From assembly GCA_014237715.1 (NCBI GenBank), contig JAAZZG010000004.1, positions 62,001-126,000 of the forward strand: a stretch of DNA of 64,000 bases, given 5' to 3'. Positions 56,235-61,931 of this stretch are shown in pieces. The notes beneath the pieces are model-generated. The model did not search any database, was not told where the DNA came from, and worked only from the letters and a program-made list of their open reading frames with translations. A program made the translations under genes and the position numbers. Numbering within the stretch: the first letter of the stretch is position 1; each line of letters starts with the position of its first letter. The stretch is from Acidimicrobiales bacterium (lineage in GTDB: Bacteria > Actinomycetota > Acidimicrobiia > Acidimicrobiales > MedAcidi-G1).

Positions 56235-57101
56235 TCAGAGGGAGCGCATCAACCGTTCTACGGCGTCGCCGAGGGGCGTGTTGGGTTCGGCTAGGTCGAG
56301 GATGACGTCGAAGTGGTTTCGCCCGGCGACCTCCAGCATGGAGACCGTCGTACCGGCCGCTTCGAGATGTCGGCCGAAGGCGTTGGACTGAGCCTTGAAC
56401 TCCGAGGTCTCGTCGGAGCCGTGGGCGACGAGGGTGGACGGGGAGCCGGTGACATCTATCAGCAGCGGACTGTTTCGCCGGGCCGTGTCCGGGTCGAGGC
56501 CGAGTCGGTTGTTGACAGCGGTCCCGATCAGTGGTTCCAATTCGTAGATCCCCGACACCAGGGCCAGCCCGGCGACGTCGGTCCCACCCGGGTCGGCGGC
56601 CACCATGGCCGCTAGGTGGGCTCCGGCCGAATGGCCGGCCAACACGATCCGGTTAGCGTCCAGGCTCAGGGCCTCGGCCCGGGCCGCGAGGGTGCGAACG
56701 GCTCGACGACACTCGTCGACAATCCGGTCGAGTGGAGCGTCGGGAGCCAGGGTGTGGTCGATGGCCGCGTAGCTCCAGCCTTGAGCAATACAGGCGGCCG
56801 TCGGAAAGCGCGACTCGACGCGTGACAGCTCCTGCCAGTAACCGCCGTGGATGAACGCCAGGAGTGGCGCCGGACGGTCACCTCCGAGTGCCATGACGTC
56901 GATGACATGGGCCTCGTCGTCGCCGTACCGGACGGTGGTGGTCGATGCCGTCGGATGGTCGCCGGCCCGGGCCCATGCGGCCTCGCTGGCCCGTCGGTAT
57001 TCAAGGATGTAGGTCTGGTAATCACCGTTGGGGAGGCATGAACTAGGGGAGTACTCCCGCTGCCGGTCGACATCGGCCATGGACGCCCAGCGAAGGGTCA
57101 T
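56235..57101 (-). CDS. Alpha/beta hydrolase, probable N-formylkynurenine formamidase
   Basis: A 288-residue esterase-fold enzyme. The oxyanion motif HGGYWQEL, the nucleophile elbow LAGHSAGAHLAAMVA, Asp in VAHGSDETSEF and the terminal His in RNHFDVI complete the triad. This layout matches eukaryote-like arylformamidases (KynB-type II). The opposite-strand neighbours haaO and kynU and the divergent MarR regulator make hydrolysis of N-formyl-L-kynurenine the best guess; a general carboxylesterase cannot be excluded. ATG 57101 is taken; an ATG seven codons on is also possible. Confidence 0.75.
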   Translation of the reverse strand: MTLRWASMADVDRQREYSPSSCLPNGDYQTYILEYRRASEAAWARAGDHPTASTTTVRYGDDEAHVIDVMALGGDRPAPLLAFIHGGYWQELSRVESRFPTAACIAQGWSYAAIDHTLAPDAPLDRIVDECRRAVRTLAARAEALSLDANRIVLAGHSAGAHLAAMVAADPGGTDVAGLALVSGIYELEPLIGTAVNNRLGLDPDTARRNSPLLIDVTGSPSTLVAHGSDETSEFKAQSNAFGRHLEAAGTTVSMLEVAGRNHFDVILDLAEPNTPLGDAVERLMRSL

Positions 57102-57140
57102 GCCGATTTCTCGATGGTTGGGGACGCAGGTTGCCTATCC

Positions 57141-57152
57141 ATTCGTATGAAT
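57141..57152. promoter_or_regulatory. Probable MarR operator in the kynurenine divergent promoter
   Basis: ATTCGTATGAAT is a 12-bp near-perfect palindrome (ATTC/GAAT arms) in the 65-bp gap between the formamidase and the MarR gene, right before the latter's -10. It suggests negative autoregulation and control of both directions. Confidence 0.5.
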
Positions 57153-57153
57153 C

Positions 57154-57159
57154 TATTCT
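57154..57159 (+). promoter_or_regulatory. -10 box of the MarR / kynurenine operon (leaderless type)
   Basis: TATTCT, 7 nt before the ATG at 57167. It favours this start over the in-frame ATG at 57131, which lies upstream of the palindrome. Confidence 0.5.
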
Positions 57160-57166
57160 CCATTCG

Positions 57167-57652
57167 ATGCCTGGCTGCTCGACCGCTTTGACGCCGGACT
57201 TCCTGGACCGGTACCTCCCGTACCTTCTCCGTAAGGCCGACCAGACCCTCTCGGCGCCGTTCTACGCGGTGCTCGCCCGGGCCGGGGTGGCCCGGTCTGA
57301 GTGGCGTCTGCTCTCGGTACTGCAGGATCTCGGGGACCTGCGCGTCGCCGATCTGGCCGTCGCGGCGCTCAGCCCCCAACCCACGGTGACCCATGCCCTT
57401 CGCAGGCTGGAGGATCGGGGCCTGGTAACTAAGACCGTCGACGGCGACGATCGGCGACAACGGGTAGTGGCTCTCACGCCCGCCGGTTCCACTTTGACCA
57501 GAGCGCTCATTGCCGATGCCACACTGTTGGAGGGTGAGGCGCTGGCTGGAGCGGACGGGCTCGAAGAGCTGGCCCAACGGCTGCGGGGCCTCACCAGCTT
57601 CTTGGAGTCCCTGGCCGCCACGGCGGTGGACGATGAGGTGTGGGTCGGATGA
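57167..57652 (+). CDS. MarR-family transcriptional regulator
   Basis: About 161 residues, with the MarR winged helix: RSEWRLLSVLQDLGDLRVADLA and SPQPTVTHALRRLEDRGLVTKT, then the wing DGDDRRQRVVALTPAG. It heads the haaO-kynU operon and faces the formamidase gene. Likely a repressor released by kynurenine, anthranilate or hydroxyanthranilate; MarR proteins commonly bind such aromatic acids, but the ligand here is inferred. It is 40 nt before haaO. Confidence 0.85.
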   Translation: MPGCSTALTPDFLDRYLPYLLRKADQTLSAPFYAVLARAGVARSEWRLLSVLQDLGDLRVADLAVAALSPQPTVTHALRRLEDRGLVTKTVDGDDRRQRVVALTPAGSTLTRALIADATLLEGEALAGADGLEELAQRLRGLTSFLESLAATAVDDEVWVG

Positions 57653-57692
57653 GGCGATCACCACGACTAGGGACGAACAGGAGAAGGCTGAC

Positions 57693-58247
57693 ATGACCGA
57701 TTACGACCCGGACCCCGGCGAGCGTCGACCGTTCAACCTCAATGCCTGGATCCGAGACCACCGTGAGGACCTCACGCCGCCGGTCGCAAATAAGCAGATC
57801 TGGCGGGACGTCGACATGATCGTGATGATCGTCGGCGGGGGAAACCAACGCAACGACTTCCACGATGACCCGCGGGAGGAGTTCTTCCACCAACTCCGGG
57901 GTGATATGGACCTCGTGATCTGGTCCGAGGAGGGCACGGCACCGTTCCACATGCCGATCCTCGAGGGCGAGGTGCACCTGCTCCCGGCCGGTATCCGCCA
58001 CTCTCCCCAGCGTCCCGACCCTGACTCGATCGGCCTGGTCGTCGAGTACCAGCGTGCACCCGGTGAGATGGATGGGTTCGAGTGGGCCTGCTTCGAGTGC
58101 GCCCACGTGGTCTACCGGGTGGAGGTCCAACTCCAGGCCATCGACGAGGACCTGCCGCCGCTCTTCGCGGCCTTCGACGCCGACGAGGCAGCCCGAACCT
58201 GTCCCAACTGTGGAGCGATCCATCCGGGGACCGGAGCCAGATTGTGA
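57693..58247 (+). CDS. haaO: 3-Hydroxyanthranilate 3,4-dioxygenase
   Basis: The iron cupin opens the ring of 3-hydroxyanthranilate to 2-amino-3-carboxymuconate semialdehyde. 184 residues. The iron ligands His57, Glu63 and His95 keep the spacing (+6, +38) of the well-known bacterial enzyme. The C-terminal rubredoxin-like site is Cys in ACFECAHVVY and CPNCGAIHPG. An AGGAGA Shine-Dalgarno is 8-9 nt before the ATG. The stop overlaps the kynU start (GTGA). Confidence 0.93.
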   Translation: MTDYDPDPGERRPFNLNAWIRDHREDLTPPVANKQIWRDVDMIVMIVGGGNQRNDFHDDPREEFFHQLRGDMDLVIWSEEGTAPFHMPILEGEVHLLPAGIRHSPQRPDPDSIGLVVEYQRAPGEMDGFEWACFECAHVVYRVEVQLQAIDEDLPPLFAAFDADEAARTCPNCGAIHPGTGARL

Positions 58248-59506
58248 GCCCCACCGTGATGCCATCCGTGGACTCGTCGACTGCCAGCGAACTGGACGCG
58301 GCCGATCCGCTGGCCCACCTGAGGGACGAGTTCGAGGTCCCCGACGGCATCTACCTCAACGGCAACTCACTGGGTGCGCTTCCCCACTCGGCTCGGACGG
58401 AGGTTGGCGACGAGATCGACCGGTGGGCCGACCTGGGAGGTCGGGGCCACTTCTCGGGGGCCTCGGCGTGGGCGACCTACCACGGCCTCCTAGCCGGAGG
58501 GCTGGCCGCCCTGGCTGGTGCCCACGTCGACGAGGTGGTGGCCATGAATTCGCTGACCGTCAACCTTCACCTGTTGCTGGTCAGTTTCTACCGGCCGACC
58601 CCCGATCGCCACAAGGTCCTCATCGAGGAGCACGCTTTCCCATCGGACCACTTCGCCGTGGAGTCGCAGATCCATCAGCGGGGCTTCGATCCGGAGACGT
58701 CGTTGGTCACCGTCGGGCCGCGCCACGGTGAGGAGACGCTCCGGGCCGAGGACCTTCTGGCGGCCATCGCCGAGCACGGTGAGGAACTGGCCGTTGTGCT
58801 CCTCCCTGGCGTCCAATACTTCACGGGCCAGGTAGTACCCATGGCCGAGGTCGTGGTCGCCGGGCACGAGGTGGGTGCCCTGGTCGGCTTCGACCTGGCC
58901 CACGCAGTGGGCAACATCGAACTCGACCTCCACGACTGGGGCGTCGATTTCGCCGTCTGGTGCTCATACAAGTACCTCAACGGTGGCCCTGGGGCTGTGG
59001 GCGGGGCCTATGTCCACCGACGCCACGTGGATGACGGGGACTTCCCCAGATTCCTGGGCTGGTGGGGAACGGATCCGGCGACGCGGTTCCAGATGGCGAA
59101 CCGGTTCGAGCCGATTCCCACGGTGGAGTCGTGGCAACTGTCCAACGCCCCAATTCTGGCCATGGCGCCGCTGAGGGCCTCGCTTGACGTCATCGACCGG
59201 GCCGGCGGCATATCGGCGTTGCGGAGGAAGTCGGAACTCCAGATTCGATATCTGGATCGTCGACTGGCCGAGTCCTTAGCCGGTCGGGTCGTGAGCCTCA
59301 CCCCGGCGGCCATGAACCAGCGGGGATGCCAGCATGCGCTGAGGATCGTGGGGGGCGACGGCCCGCAGGTGTTTCGGATGCTGGCCGAAGAGCGGGTGGT
59401 CTGTGACTGGCGTGAGCCTGACGTGATCCGGGCCGCCCCGGTGCCGCTCTACAACTCGTTCACTGACATCGACCGATTCGTCGACCTGCTCGACGGGATC
59501 GTGTGA
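58244..59506 (+). CDS. kynU: Kynureninase
   Basis: The PLP enzyme cleaves kynurenine or 3-hydroxykynurenine to (3-hydroxy)anthranilate plus alanine. About 420 residues. YLNGNSLGALPHSAR, FSGASAWATYHG, the PLP Lys in WCSYKYLNGGPGAVGGAYVH and FLGWWGTDPATRFQMANRFE are the kynureninase signatures. GTG 58244 overlaps haaO; an ATG at 58259 is possible. Its stop overlaps the aldehyde dehydrogenase GTG, so haaO, kynU and the next gene are translationally coupled. Confidence 0.93.
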   Translation: MSPTVMPSVDSSTASELDAADPLAHLRDEFEVPDGIYLNGNSLGALPHSARTEVGDEIDRWADLGGRGHFSGASAWATYHGLLAGGLAALAGAHVDEVVAMNSLTVNLHLLLVSFYRPTPDRHKVLIEEHAFPSDHFAVESQIHQRGFDPETSLVTVGPRHGEETLRAEDLLAAIAEHGEELAVVLLPGVQYFTGQVVPMAEVVVAGHEVGALVGFDLAHAVGNIELDLHDWGVDFAVWCSYKYLNGGPGAVGGAYVHRRHVDDGDFPRFLGWWGTDPATRFQMANRFEPIPTVESWQLSNAPILAMAPLRASLDVIDRAGGISALRRKSELQIRYLDRRLAESLAGRVVSLTPAAMNQRGCQHALRIVGGDGPQVFRMLAEERVVCDWREPDVIRAAPVPLYNSFTDIDRFVDLLDGIV

Positions 59507-60957
59507 GGCTGGAGCAGTTGATGATGACCTATCCGGAGTCAAAGTTGTACATCGACGGTGCCTGGCGGGCGACTGGCGAGGGCCTACCCATCATGGACCC
59601 GGCGACCGAGGCTGTCATCGGACAGGTGCCTGTCGCCAGTGCAGCTGACCTCGACGATGCCCTGGCTGCCTCGGCAGCCGGGTTCGAAGTGTGGCGCCGG
59701 ACGCCGCCTCGCGACCGGGCCGCCCTGATCCGATCAGCGGCCACCCTGCTGCGTTCCCGGCAGGATGAGATCGCCTACGCCATCACCCTTGAGCACGGCA
59801 AGCCGTTCGCCCAGTCGCAAAGGGAGGTCATTCGAGGCGCCGAGTTCTTCGAATGGGACGCCGGTGAAGCCATGCGCACCTACGGCCGGGTCATTCCCAG
59901 CGGCCCGGGTGTCAAGCACGTCGTGCACCACCAGCCGATTGGTCCGGTAGCCGCATTCTCACCGTGGAACTTCCCTATGAGCCAGCCAGCCCGCAAGGTG
60001 GCCGGCGCTCTGGCCTCGGGGTGCTCGATCATCCTGAAGGCGGCCGAGGAGACCCCAGCCGGAGCCATGCACATCGTTCAGGCGTTCCACGACGTGGGGC
60101 TCCCACCGGGTGTGCTCAACCTTGTCTACGGAATTCCGGACGACATCTCGCAGCACCTCATCGTCAGCGACGTGATCCGCCTGGTGGCCTTCACCGGCTC
60201 TTCCTCGGTCGGACGCCACCTCACCGGGCTCGCGGCCGACCACATGACACCGGTCATGATGGAACTGGGTGGACACGCACCGGTGATCGTGTGCGAGGAC
60301 ACTGATGTCGACGCGGCGGCCGCCAGTTCGGCGGCACGGGCCATGCGCAACACTGGCCAGGTCTGCACCTCGCCGACCCGCTTCTTCGTCCACCAGGCCG
60401 TCTACGACCGGTTCCTCGACGGGATCACCCGCCACTGCGCGTCCATTGTCGTAGGCGCGGGTATGGAGCACGGCGTCGAGATGGGGCCGTTGGCCAACAA
60501 CCGGCGCCTTGCCACCGTGACCGACCTCGTGGCCGATGCCTGCGGCACCGGGGCGATGCTGACCACTGGAGGCCATCGCATCGGGGAGACCGGCTACTTC
60601 TACGAGCCGACGGTGCTGGCCGACGTCGGCGACGACGCCCGGATCATGCGCGAGGAGCCCTTCGGGCCGGTGGCCATCGTGAACTCCGTCGACTCGCTGG
60701 ACACGGCGATCGAGCGGGCCAACGCGGTCCCGTTCGCCCTCGCCGCCTACGGGTTCACCAACCGGGCCGACTACATGGACCGCATGGTCGACCAGGTCGA
60801 GGCGGGCAACCTGTCGATCAACACGCTGGAGGCATCCCTCCCGGAGACCCCGTTCGGTGGCATGAAGTCCAGCGGCTATGGCCGGGAGGGTGGGACGGAG
60901 GGCCTCCACCACTACCTGACGGTCAAGAACGTCTCCCAAAGCATCCCCATCGTCTGA
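59503..60957 (+). CDS. Aldehyde dehydrogenase, probable 2-aminomuconate-6-semialdehyde dehydrogenase
   Basis: A 484-residue NAD(P)-dependent dehydrogenase. The catalytic Glu is in MMELGGHAPVIV and the nucleophilic Cys in RNTGQVCTSPTRFFVH; PWNFPMSQPARKVAGAL and FTGSSSVGRHL complete the cofactor-binding set. Within the aldehyde dehydrogenase family it resembles succinic- and aminomuconic-semialdehyde types. Coupling to haaO and kynU points to oxidation of 2-aminomuconate semialdehyde, or of the HaaO product directly. The GTG start overlaps the kynU stop. Confidence 0.85.
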   Translation: MRLEQLMMTYPESKLYIDGAWRATGEGLPIMDPATEAVIGQVPVASAADLDDALAASAAGFEVWRRTPPRDRAALIRSAATLLRSRQDEIAYAITLEHGKPFAQSQREVIRGAEFFEWDAGEAMRTYGRVIPSGPGVKHVVHHQPIGPVAAFSPWNFPMSQPARKVAGALASGCSIILKAAEETPAGAMHIVQAFHDVGLPPGVLNLVYGIPDDISQHLIVSDVIRLVAFTGSSSVGRHLTGLAADHMTPVMMELGGHAPVIVCEDTDVDAAAASSAARAMRNTGQVCTSPTRFFVHQAVYDRFLDGITRHCASIVVGAGMEHGVEMGPLANNRRLATVTDLVADACGTGAMLTTGGHRIGETGYFYEPTVLADVGDDARIMREEPFGPVAIVNSVDSLDTAIERANAVPFALAAYGFTNRADYMDRMVDQVEAGNLSINTLEASLPETPFGGMKSSGYGREGGTEGLHHYLTVKNVSQSIPIV

Positions 60958-60977
60958 TTGGTATCGGGAGAGGGGAC

Positions 60978-61931
60978 ATGGATCACTCAAGGGCCAACGC
61001 CAAGGACCACGCCCGCCAGTACATGAAGGGCATCTGGGCAGCCGCTCTCACACCGTTCACCGAGGACCTTCGGGTCGACGAGGACGGCTTCCGGGAGAAC
61101 GTCCGATACTGGACCGAGGACCTCGAGATCGAGGGCGTCTTCGTCTCCGGGAAGCAGGGTGAGTTCTTCTCGATGTCGGTTGACGAACGGAAGCGGTCGT
61201 TCGAGTTGGCTGTTGAAGCCACAGCGGATCGGGGCCGGACAATCATGTCCTGCTCTGACCAGAACCTGGACGTCGTCCTGGACCTGGCCCGTCATGCCGT
61301 CGATGTGGGTGCCGATTGGATCGTGGTCCACGCACCGACGCTGCACTTCCACACCGAGCGGGACGAGGCACTGGTCGGCTACTACCGGACGATCGCCGAG
61401 CAGGTCGACATCGGGATCGCCCTGTGGAGCCACCCCGACAGCGGCTACCTCATGTCACCGGACCTATGCAGCCGCTTGGCCGACATCGAGACCGTGGTGG
61501 CCATCAAGTACAGCGTGCCGCGGCCGATGTACTCGGAACTGACCGCCCTGGCCTCAGACCGCATCCAGGTGAGCACGGCGTCGGAGGTGGAGTGGTTAGA
61601 CAACGTCCTCGAACTGGACTGGCGGTTGTACCTCTGCTCCTCGCCGCCGTTCCTGCTTCAGACGGCGTCCGACCGGCGTATGCACGACTACACACAGGCG
61701 GCGTTTGCCGGACGGGCCGACGAGGCACGGTCAATCAGCGCCAGTCTCGAGCCGGTGCGGGCCGCCCTCAGGGATACCCGGCCACCGGATAAGCCCCACG
61801 CTCACCAGAAGTACTGGCAGGAACTGCTGGGTCAGGTGGGCGGCCGCGTCCGTGCGCCGCTACTGGAGTTAACCGAGGAGGAGAAGCGGGCCACCCGCGA
61901 GGCGTTCGAGGAGTGCGGGCTGGAACTCTGA
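60978..61931 (+). CDS. Dihydrodipicolinate synthase (DapA) family protein with atypical active site
   Basis: A 317-residue class I aldolase-fold protein. The Schiff-base Lys177 is in ETVVAIKYSVPRPMYSEL. Other DapA landmarks are altered: the pyruvate-binding GTTGE is GKQGE (58-62), and the segment that normally has the catalytic Tyr (LYN) reads ALWSHPDSGY (148-157), so the Tyr is Trp150. A true DapA is therefore unlikely. It closes the kynurenine operon (20 nt after the dehydrogenase, with GGGAGAGGGGA before the ATG) and might cleave or decarboxylate a later C6 intermediate; this is inference. It converges on a thiolase gene, 8 bp away. Confidence 0.7.
   Translation: MDHSRANAKDHARQYMKGIWAAALTPFTEDLRVDEDGFRENVRYWTEDLEIEGVFVSGKQGEFFSMSVDERKRSFELAVEATADRGRTIMSCSDQNLDVVLDLARHAVDVGADWIVVHAPTLHFHTERDEALVGYYRTIAEQVDIGIALWSHPDSGYLMSPDLCSRLADIETVVAIKYSVPRPMYSELTALASDRIQVSTASEVEWLDNVLELDWRLYLCSSPPFLLQTASDRRMHDYTQAAFAGRADEARSISASLEPVRAALRDTRPPDKPHAHQKYWQELLGQVGGRVRAPLLELTEEEKRATREAFEECGLEL

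Follow-up and report, generated by a model that had tools for sequence, protein, structure and literature searches.

Gene content of the locus and comparison with congeners

The subject of this analysis is a kynurenine-type gene cluster at positions 56235-61931 of a 64,000-nucleotide window from an Acidimicrobiales bacterium and, in particular, the atypical DapA-fold protein encoded at its end, which we refer to as DapX (gene dapX). The source assembly is a metagenome-assembled genome of 2.33 Mb in 75 contigs and is 92.6% complete. A first-pass annotation, made from the sequence alone, had described the cluster as a formamidase-like hydrolase, HaaO, KynU, an aldehyde dehydrogenase (ALDH), and a DapA-fold protein, and profile matches bear out all five assignments. 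On the plus strand, haaO (57690-58247) encodes a 3-hydroxyanthranilate 3,4-dioxygenase that scores 233 bits against NF009763 (cut-off 220) and 210 bits against TIGR03037, also over the cut-off, and that matches PF06052. It is followed on the same strand by the kynureninase gene kynU (58265-59506; TIGR01814, 405 bits, cut-off 246), by a short spacer with a ribosome-site-like GGAG element (59507-59520), and by the ALDH gene (probable start 59521, end 60957), which scores 498 bits against PF00171 and whose closest solved structures are the semialdehyde dehydrogenases KGSADH and SSADH. The last gene is dapX (60978-61931, plus strand), an atypical member of the dihydrodipicolinate synthase (DHDPS)/N-acetylneuraminate lyase (NAL) superfamily (PF00701, 94 bits), predicted to be a Schiff-base lyase and carrying Lys177 and the motifs GKQGE and LWSHP.

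Upstream of haaO, on the plus strand, lies a gene for a MarR-family regulator (57131-57652; PF12802/PF01047) that the first-pass annotation omitted and that sits immediately 5' of haaO in many Acidimicrobiia loci. The hydrolase gene (56235-57101, minus strand; PF20434/PF07859) encodes an arylformamidase-like alpha/beta hydrolase with an HGGYWQ motif, a candidate N-formylkynurenine hydrolase. It adjoins the cluster and is retained next to it in several relatives, but it is divergently transcribed and so lies outside the haaO-dapX operon. The flanks look unrelated, with apparent ilv genes upstream and an opposite-strand thiolase gene downstream.

The cluster had also been reported to lack several expected genes. 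Tryptophan dioxygenase (TDO), kynurenine monooxygenase (KMO), the 2-amino-3-carboxymuconate semialdehyde (ACMS) decarboxylase ACMSD, L-aspartate dehydrogenase (AspDH), and NadA were each searched for in the source genome, and none was found. For ACMSD, the source genome contains eight Amidohydro_2 genes, none of which was matched by a bona fide ACMSD at an E value of 1e-10. The 2-aminomuconate deaminase AmnD, 4-oxalocrotonate decarboxylase, hydratase, and aldolase are absent from all 89 dapX loci inspected, a search that covered the loci and not the rest of the source genome.

Comparison with relatives (whose loci are labeled here with L-numbers) places part of this absence in an evolutionary context. 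Within the genus, seven of 17 genomes, source genome counted, carry dapX, and the gene order in L001 is a divergent formamidase-like hydrolase, marR, haaO, kynU, KMO, TDO, ALDH, dapX, and AspDH. KMO and TDO sit between kynU and ALDH in L001, L002, L003, L005, L006, L007, and L008, the nearest relatives, while L004 has just ALDH-dapX-AspDH at the corresponding site. The KMO/TDO segment is ∼2.2 kb in the congeners (L001 6242-8462), whereas comparison with L001, L002, L003, and L005 shows a clean 14-base spacer at this junction in the source genome. Similarly, dapX ends the operon in the source genome, as first described, but AspDH follows it in most congeners and is there the last gene. Because the congeners keep KMO and TDO at this site and AspDH after dapX, part of the reported absence probably reflects derived, lineage-specific loss; an assembly effect is less likely. 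With TDO and KMO gone, the organism presumably either depends on import of 3-hydroxykynurenine or 3-hydroxyanthranilate or no longer encodes the complete route.

Such losses raise the possibility that the locus is a decaying remnant that, having lost TDO, KMO, and AspDH, no longer supports a working pathway. That the congeners retain KMO, TDO, and mostly AspDH at the site, with none elsewhere in the source genome, fits this explanation. The remaining frames, on the other hand, are intact and closely spaced, the ALDH gene is preceded by the clean spacer with its GGAG element, and HaaO, KynU, ALDH, and DapX are 72-89% identical to those of the nearest relatives (L001-L007). We therefore regard decay as rather unlikely, and it would in any case concern one genome and not the function of the family.

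DapX is a distinct family with recurrent genomic partners

Searching 84,980 species genomes for DapX homologs returned 456 relatives. The best 80 of these, drawn from Acidimicrobiia, Bosea, Mesorhizobium, Aminobacter, Rhizobium, Nitratireductor, Gemmobacter, and other taxa, are 72-85% identical to DapX. Across Acidimicrobiia and Alphaproteobacteria, identity spans 61-85%. In a Pseudomonadota sample, DapX was found in 10 of 398 genomes, each time at an identity of at least 61%, and nothing further appeared down to an E value of 1e-40. The gene was also found in 47 plasmid records, where it is annotated merely as a "dihydrodipicolinate synthase family protein."

Eight residues (Lys59, His118, Trp150, Ser151, His152, Lys177, Arg182, and Arg292) are the same in all 90 DapX sequences compared. 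It had been noted that GKQGE (residues 58-62) and LWSHP (residues 149-153) replace the GTTGE and LYN motifs of DapA, and this holds across the family: GKQGE is kept in 86/89 homologs, and LWSHP (with L, I, V, or M at the first position) and KYS in 89/89. This conservation marks GKQGE and LWSHP as family signatures and not chance substitutions. An AlphaFold2 model of DapX (pLDDT 88) adopts the DHDPS/NAL TIM barrel according to Foldseek and VIA-align, and it is about equidistant from all solved members (Z ∼33, ∼22% identity, 2.1-2.2 Å over 290 residues). In the alignment with NAL, Lys177 coincides with the catalytic, Schiff-base-forming lysine, Lys-Gln stands where NAL has the Ser-Thr pair of GSTGE, and a Trp occupies the position of the catalytic Tyr.

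Partner genes were counted in 89 dapX loci. ALDH is present in 75, haaO in 72, and AspDH in 69, and kynU, KMO, and TDO each occur in only 30 to 35. ALDH lies within 250 bp of dapX in 60/89 loci and haaO does so in 47/89, and the three genes are neighbors in both Acidimicrobiia and Alphaproteobacteria. The first-pass annotation had asked whether dapX stays with haaO-kynU in other genomes. For haaO it does, in two phyla and in 34 of 34 dapX genomes, including those in which the two genes are not adjacent. kynU, in contrast, occurs in 30/89 loci and is missing from many Rhizobiales ones, and it was rejected as the key partner. In a class-wide sample of 296 genomes, haaO exceeded its cut-off in eight and dapX occurred in three, all three of them inside those eight (3/8 versus 0/288; Fisher 1.3e-5, or 5e-4 with the source genome removed).

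AspDH was identified by its score of 229 bits against NF009828 (cut-off 177) and by its relationship to the solved Archaeoglobus fulgidus and Thermotoga maritima enzymes. The 34 dapX genomes were compared with five relatives that have haaO and no dapX, and AspDH is present in 31 of the former and in none of the latter. NadA is absent from 12 of 17 dapX genomes tested (source genome counted) and present in 12 of 14 control genomes. Since AspDH occurs mostly in genomes that lack NadA and is tied to dapX, its role here is probably catabolic rather than NAD-biosynthetic.

The enzyme that accompanies dapX as an aldehyde oxidizer is interchangeable. Among 93 dapX loci, 78 have only ALDH and 10 have only a molybdenum (Mo) hydroxylase, encoded directly upstream of dapX; the two never occur together, and five loci have neither, three of these five lying on short contigs. 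In the Mo loci (L068, L069, L070, L071, L079, L111-L114, and L138), a Mo-binding subunit of the xanthine dehydrogenase family takes the place of ALDH, and its gene lies within ∼20 bases of dapX or overlaps it. The alternation of two unrelated oxidizers beside dapX implies that aldehyde oxidation belongs to the module. Taken together, the gene context strongly supports a module composed of HaaO, an aldehyde-oxidizing enzyme (ALDH or the xanthine-dehydrogenase-family Mo subunit), DapX, and AspDH.

Other genes occur near the module in individual lineages. In Rhodobacter-type loci, a glutamine-synthetase-family protein adjoins haaO (L113:717-2138 and L114:17466-18824, with the Pfam assignment made in L113 only), and it possibly carries out gamma-glutamylation of an aromatic amine. 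In L138, a fumarylacetoacetate-hydrolase-family protein (1702-2610) is encoded close to the module. Oxaloacetate is a substrate of some proteins of this family.

A probable alternative lower pathway for 3-hydroxyanthranilate

The predicted input of the module is 3-hydroxyanthranilate, since two different sets of feeder genes converge on it. In Acidimicrobiia the feeders are TDO, KMO, and KynU. In two related Rhizobium loci, the plasmid locus L139 and L062, they are a flavin reductase and a PnbB-domain protein of the hydroxylaminobenzoate lyase/mutase type (L139:7032-8779, fused to an FMN reductase domain, and L062:6134-6793). Genes of the PnbB/flavin reductase type are known for the conversion of 2-nitrobenzoate to 3-hydroxyanthranilate, and the pair suggests a nitro- or hydroxylamino-benzoate feeder of the module. 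L139, on an annotated Rhizobium plasmid, carries contiguous dapX, haaO, AspDH, and "NAD-dependent succinate-semialdehyde dehydrogenase" genes. In Bosea-type loci the module is accompanied by genes for an ABC transporter and an arylformamidase-like hydrolase, and L137, on a 78-kb plasmid of Phaeobacter inhibens typed as conjugative, contains AspDH, dapX, TRAP and TTT transporters, kynU, SSADH, and haaO. The 2-nitrobenzoate route described previously converges on 3-hydroxyanthranilate dioxygenase, ACMSD, and the aminomuconate semialdehyde dehydrogenase AMSDH (PMC10143591).

The dapX genomes appear to do without ACMSD. No ACMSD ortholog was found in any of the 34, source genome included; the best match, at 37% identity, scores 169 bits, compared with 234 bits for human ACMSD. 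In contrast, ACMSD is present in four of the five haaO-positive, dapX-negative relatives, two of which have a complete meta route. These two (L118 and L119), from the family of the source organism, combine haaO, ACMSD, kynU, KMO, and TDO with a Rid protein and with 4-oxalocrotonate decarboxylase-like, 2-keto-4-pentenoate hydratase-like, acetaldehyde dehydrogenase, and 4-hydroxy-2-oxovalerate aldolase genes, and the L119 ACMSD scores 440 bits against Pseudomonas-type ACMSD structures. In L120 and L122, genes for ACMSD and a Rid protein lie near haaO. The fifth relative (L121, genome G281) has haaO, kynU, and KMO with neither ACMSD nor dapX, and perhaps represents a quinolinate/NAD route.

The first-pass annotation had proposed that the DapA-like protein performs an unreported step of kynurenine catabolism. 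It would have been contradicted if the missing steps lay in another operon and dapX were unlinked; instead, dapX stays with haaO, and ACMSD is absent from the dapX genomes. This linkage and the exclusion of ACMSD together provide strong evidence, from genome comparison, that DapX acts in 3-hydroxyanthranilate breakdown and replaces the ACMSD branch. We consider it probable that catabolism is the dedicated function of DapX and that it serves an alternative lower pathway, in which it would replace ACMSD, 2-aminomuconate deaminase, and the classical meta-cleavage steps. Our confidence in the exact reaction is moderate.

The substrate of DapX is likely to be 2-amino-3-carboxymuconate (or ACMS) and not 2-aminomuconate, 4-oxalocrotonate, or 4-hydroxy-2-oxovalerate. 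ACMS has the structure HOOC-C(NH2)=C(COOH)-CH=CH-CHO. It cyclizes spontaneously to quinolinate (PMC10143591). In our proposal, HaaO would open the ring of 3-hydroxyanthranilate to give ACMS, whose aldehyde would be oxidized ahead of any decarboxylation; the resulting 2-amino-3-carboxymuconate could no longer cyclize to quinolinate. Lys177 of DapX would then form a Schiff base at C2 and activate the conjugated chain for addition of water at C4, and Lys59 may accommodate the extra carboxylate of the substrate. Retro-aldol cleavage at C3-C4 would release malonate semialdehyde and oxaloacetate, or its imine, iminosuccinate, which AspDH would reduce to aspartate. An iminosuccinate/oxaloacetate product would account for the link to AspDH, and because iminosuccinate also hydrolyzes spontaneously, AspDH would be dispensable and could be lost, as in the source genome. 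The evidence leans modestly toward this scheme as a whole, that is, an undescribed catabolism of 3-hydroxyanthranilate from tryptophan, kynurenine, or 2-nitrobenzoate-type compounds in which DapX splits the ring-cleavage product once it has been oxidized and AspDH saves the nitrogen as aspartate, distributed over Acidimicrobiia, Rhizobiales, and Rhodobacterales and carried in part by plasmids.

Several observations weigh against this scheme. DapX has Trp150 in place of the catalytic Tyr and Lys59-Gln60 in place of the GTTGE threonines; retro-aldol chemistry is therefore not assured, and DapX could instead be a decarboxylase or deaminase. Nor did the module show an enzyme dedicated to malonate semialdehyde, and that compound, rather than ACMS, could be the substrate of the ALDH. 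Three dapX genomes, including the source genome, lack AspDH. Lastly, the association counts are phylogenetically non-independent. The linkage does recur in two phyla, in differing gene orders.

Among other possible reactions, DapX could be a Schiff-base decarboxylase/deaminase that binds 2-amino-3-carboxymuconate at C2 and removes the C3 carboxylate and ammonia, yielding 4-oxalocrotonate (2-oxo-3-hexenedioate). This would replace ACMSD and AmnD in one step, with ordinary later genes located elsewhere. The superfamily offers a precedent in 5-keto-4-deoxyglucarate dehydratase, and ACMSD and the Rid/AmnD gene are precisely those that dapX clusters lack. However, every dapX locus searched likewise lacks 4-oxalocrotonate decarboxylase, hydratase, and aldolase, and the strong AspDH link would go unexplained, which makes this reaction unlikely. 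Less probable still is that DapX cleaves ACMS prior to oxidation, giving oxaloacetate/iminosuccinate and malondialdehyde, with ALDH or the Mo hydroxylase then oxidizing the C3 aldehyde to malonate semialdehyde or malonate. The resemblance of the ALDH to KGSADH and SSADH, which act on short semialdehydes, is in keeping with such an order, and gene order does not fix reaction order; yet reactive malondialdehyde would be released and ACMS left able to cyclize, and the position of the oxidizer gene near dapX is compatible with either order. Finally, a role in NAD synthesis, with HaaO-derived ACMS going to quinolinate and AspDH/DapX supplying or channeling precursors, could draw on the NadX-like annotation of AspDH and on the absence of NadA from the source genome and the other dapX genomes among the 12 of 17, but is very improbable, as AspDH without NadA is unable to feed the known NadA route, quinolinate formation needs neither ALDH nor DapX, and many clusters combine uptake transporters and LysR/MarR/FCD regulators with a lack of TDO/KMO/KynU, thus resembling catabolism of external aromatics.

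If the preferred scheme, oxidation followed by DapX cleavage and aspartate formation, is true, cultured and plasmid-bearing bacteria (Bosea, Rhizobium, and Phaeobacter) would possess a second exit from 3-hydroxyanthranilate that avoids ACMSD. The textbook view holds a single catabolic exit, via ACMSD and 2-aminomuconate. Pathway reconstructions would have to be corrected accordingly, and a well-studied superfamily would gain a new activity. The model is testable with four soluble proteins. Searches of open-access papers, a scope that excludes most subscription-journal papers and all preprints, turned up no account of 3-hydroxyanthranilate catabolism with a DapA-like or AspDH-linked step. A fungal study retains the ACMSD route (PMC7842363).

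Relationship to known enzymes and to the classical route

DapX shares the TIM-barrel fold and the Schiff-base lysine of DHDPS (DapA) and NAL. It differs from them in that Thr44-Thr45 is replaced by Lys59-Gln60 and Tyr133/137 by Trp150, in that Arg138 is missing, and in carrying a two-residue insertion at the Tyr107 loop. It scores 83 bits against TIGR00674 for DHDPS (cut-off 206) and 57.8 bits against TIGR00683 for NAL (cut-off 382), where Trp150 occupies the position of Tyr137. Assignment as an ordinary dapA or NAL is thus ruled out by both the active-site residues and the curated cut-offs.

The closest analogy for the proposed chemistry is provided by NahE and PhdJ, hydratase-aldolases of the same superfamily that form a Schiff base with an alpha-keto/imino acid, hydrate a conjugated double bond, and carry out retro-aldol cleavage. 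DapX would differ in that its substrate bears an extra carboxylate and its product is oxaloacetate rather than pyruvate. NahE and PhdJ are not among the sequence or fold matches listed for DapX; no direct comparison was made, and their absence from the lists does not count against a similar mechanism. The AspDH of the module belongs to the same family as NadX-type L-aspartate dehydrogenases, from which it is set apart by its occurrence mostly in genomes without NadA and its tie to dapX.

The classical bacterial route from 3-hydroxyanthranilate proceeds through HaaO, ACMSD, AMSDH, AmnD, 4-oxalocrotonate decarboxylase, and DmpE/F/G-type steps. The dapX clusters share its entry (TDO, formamidase, KMO, KynU, and HaaO) and would share its ring-cleavage product, ACMS. 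They differ beyond that point, where ACMSD, Rid/AmnD, and the lower meta genes give way to ALDH (or the Mo hydroxylase), DapX, and AspDH.

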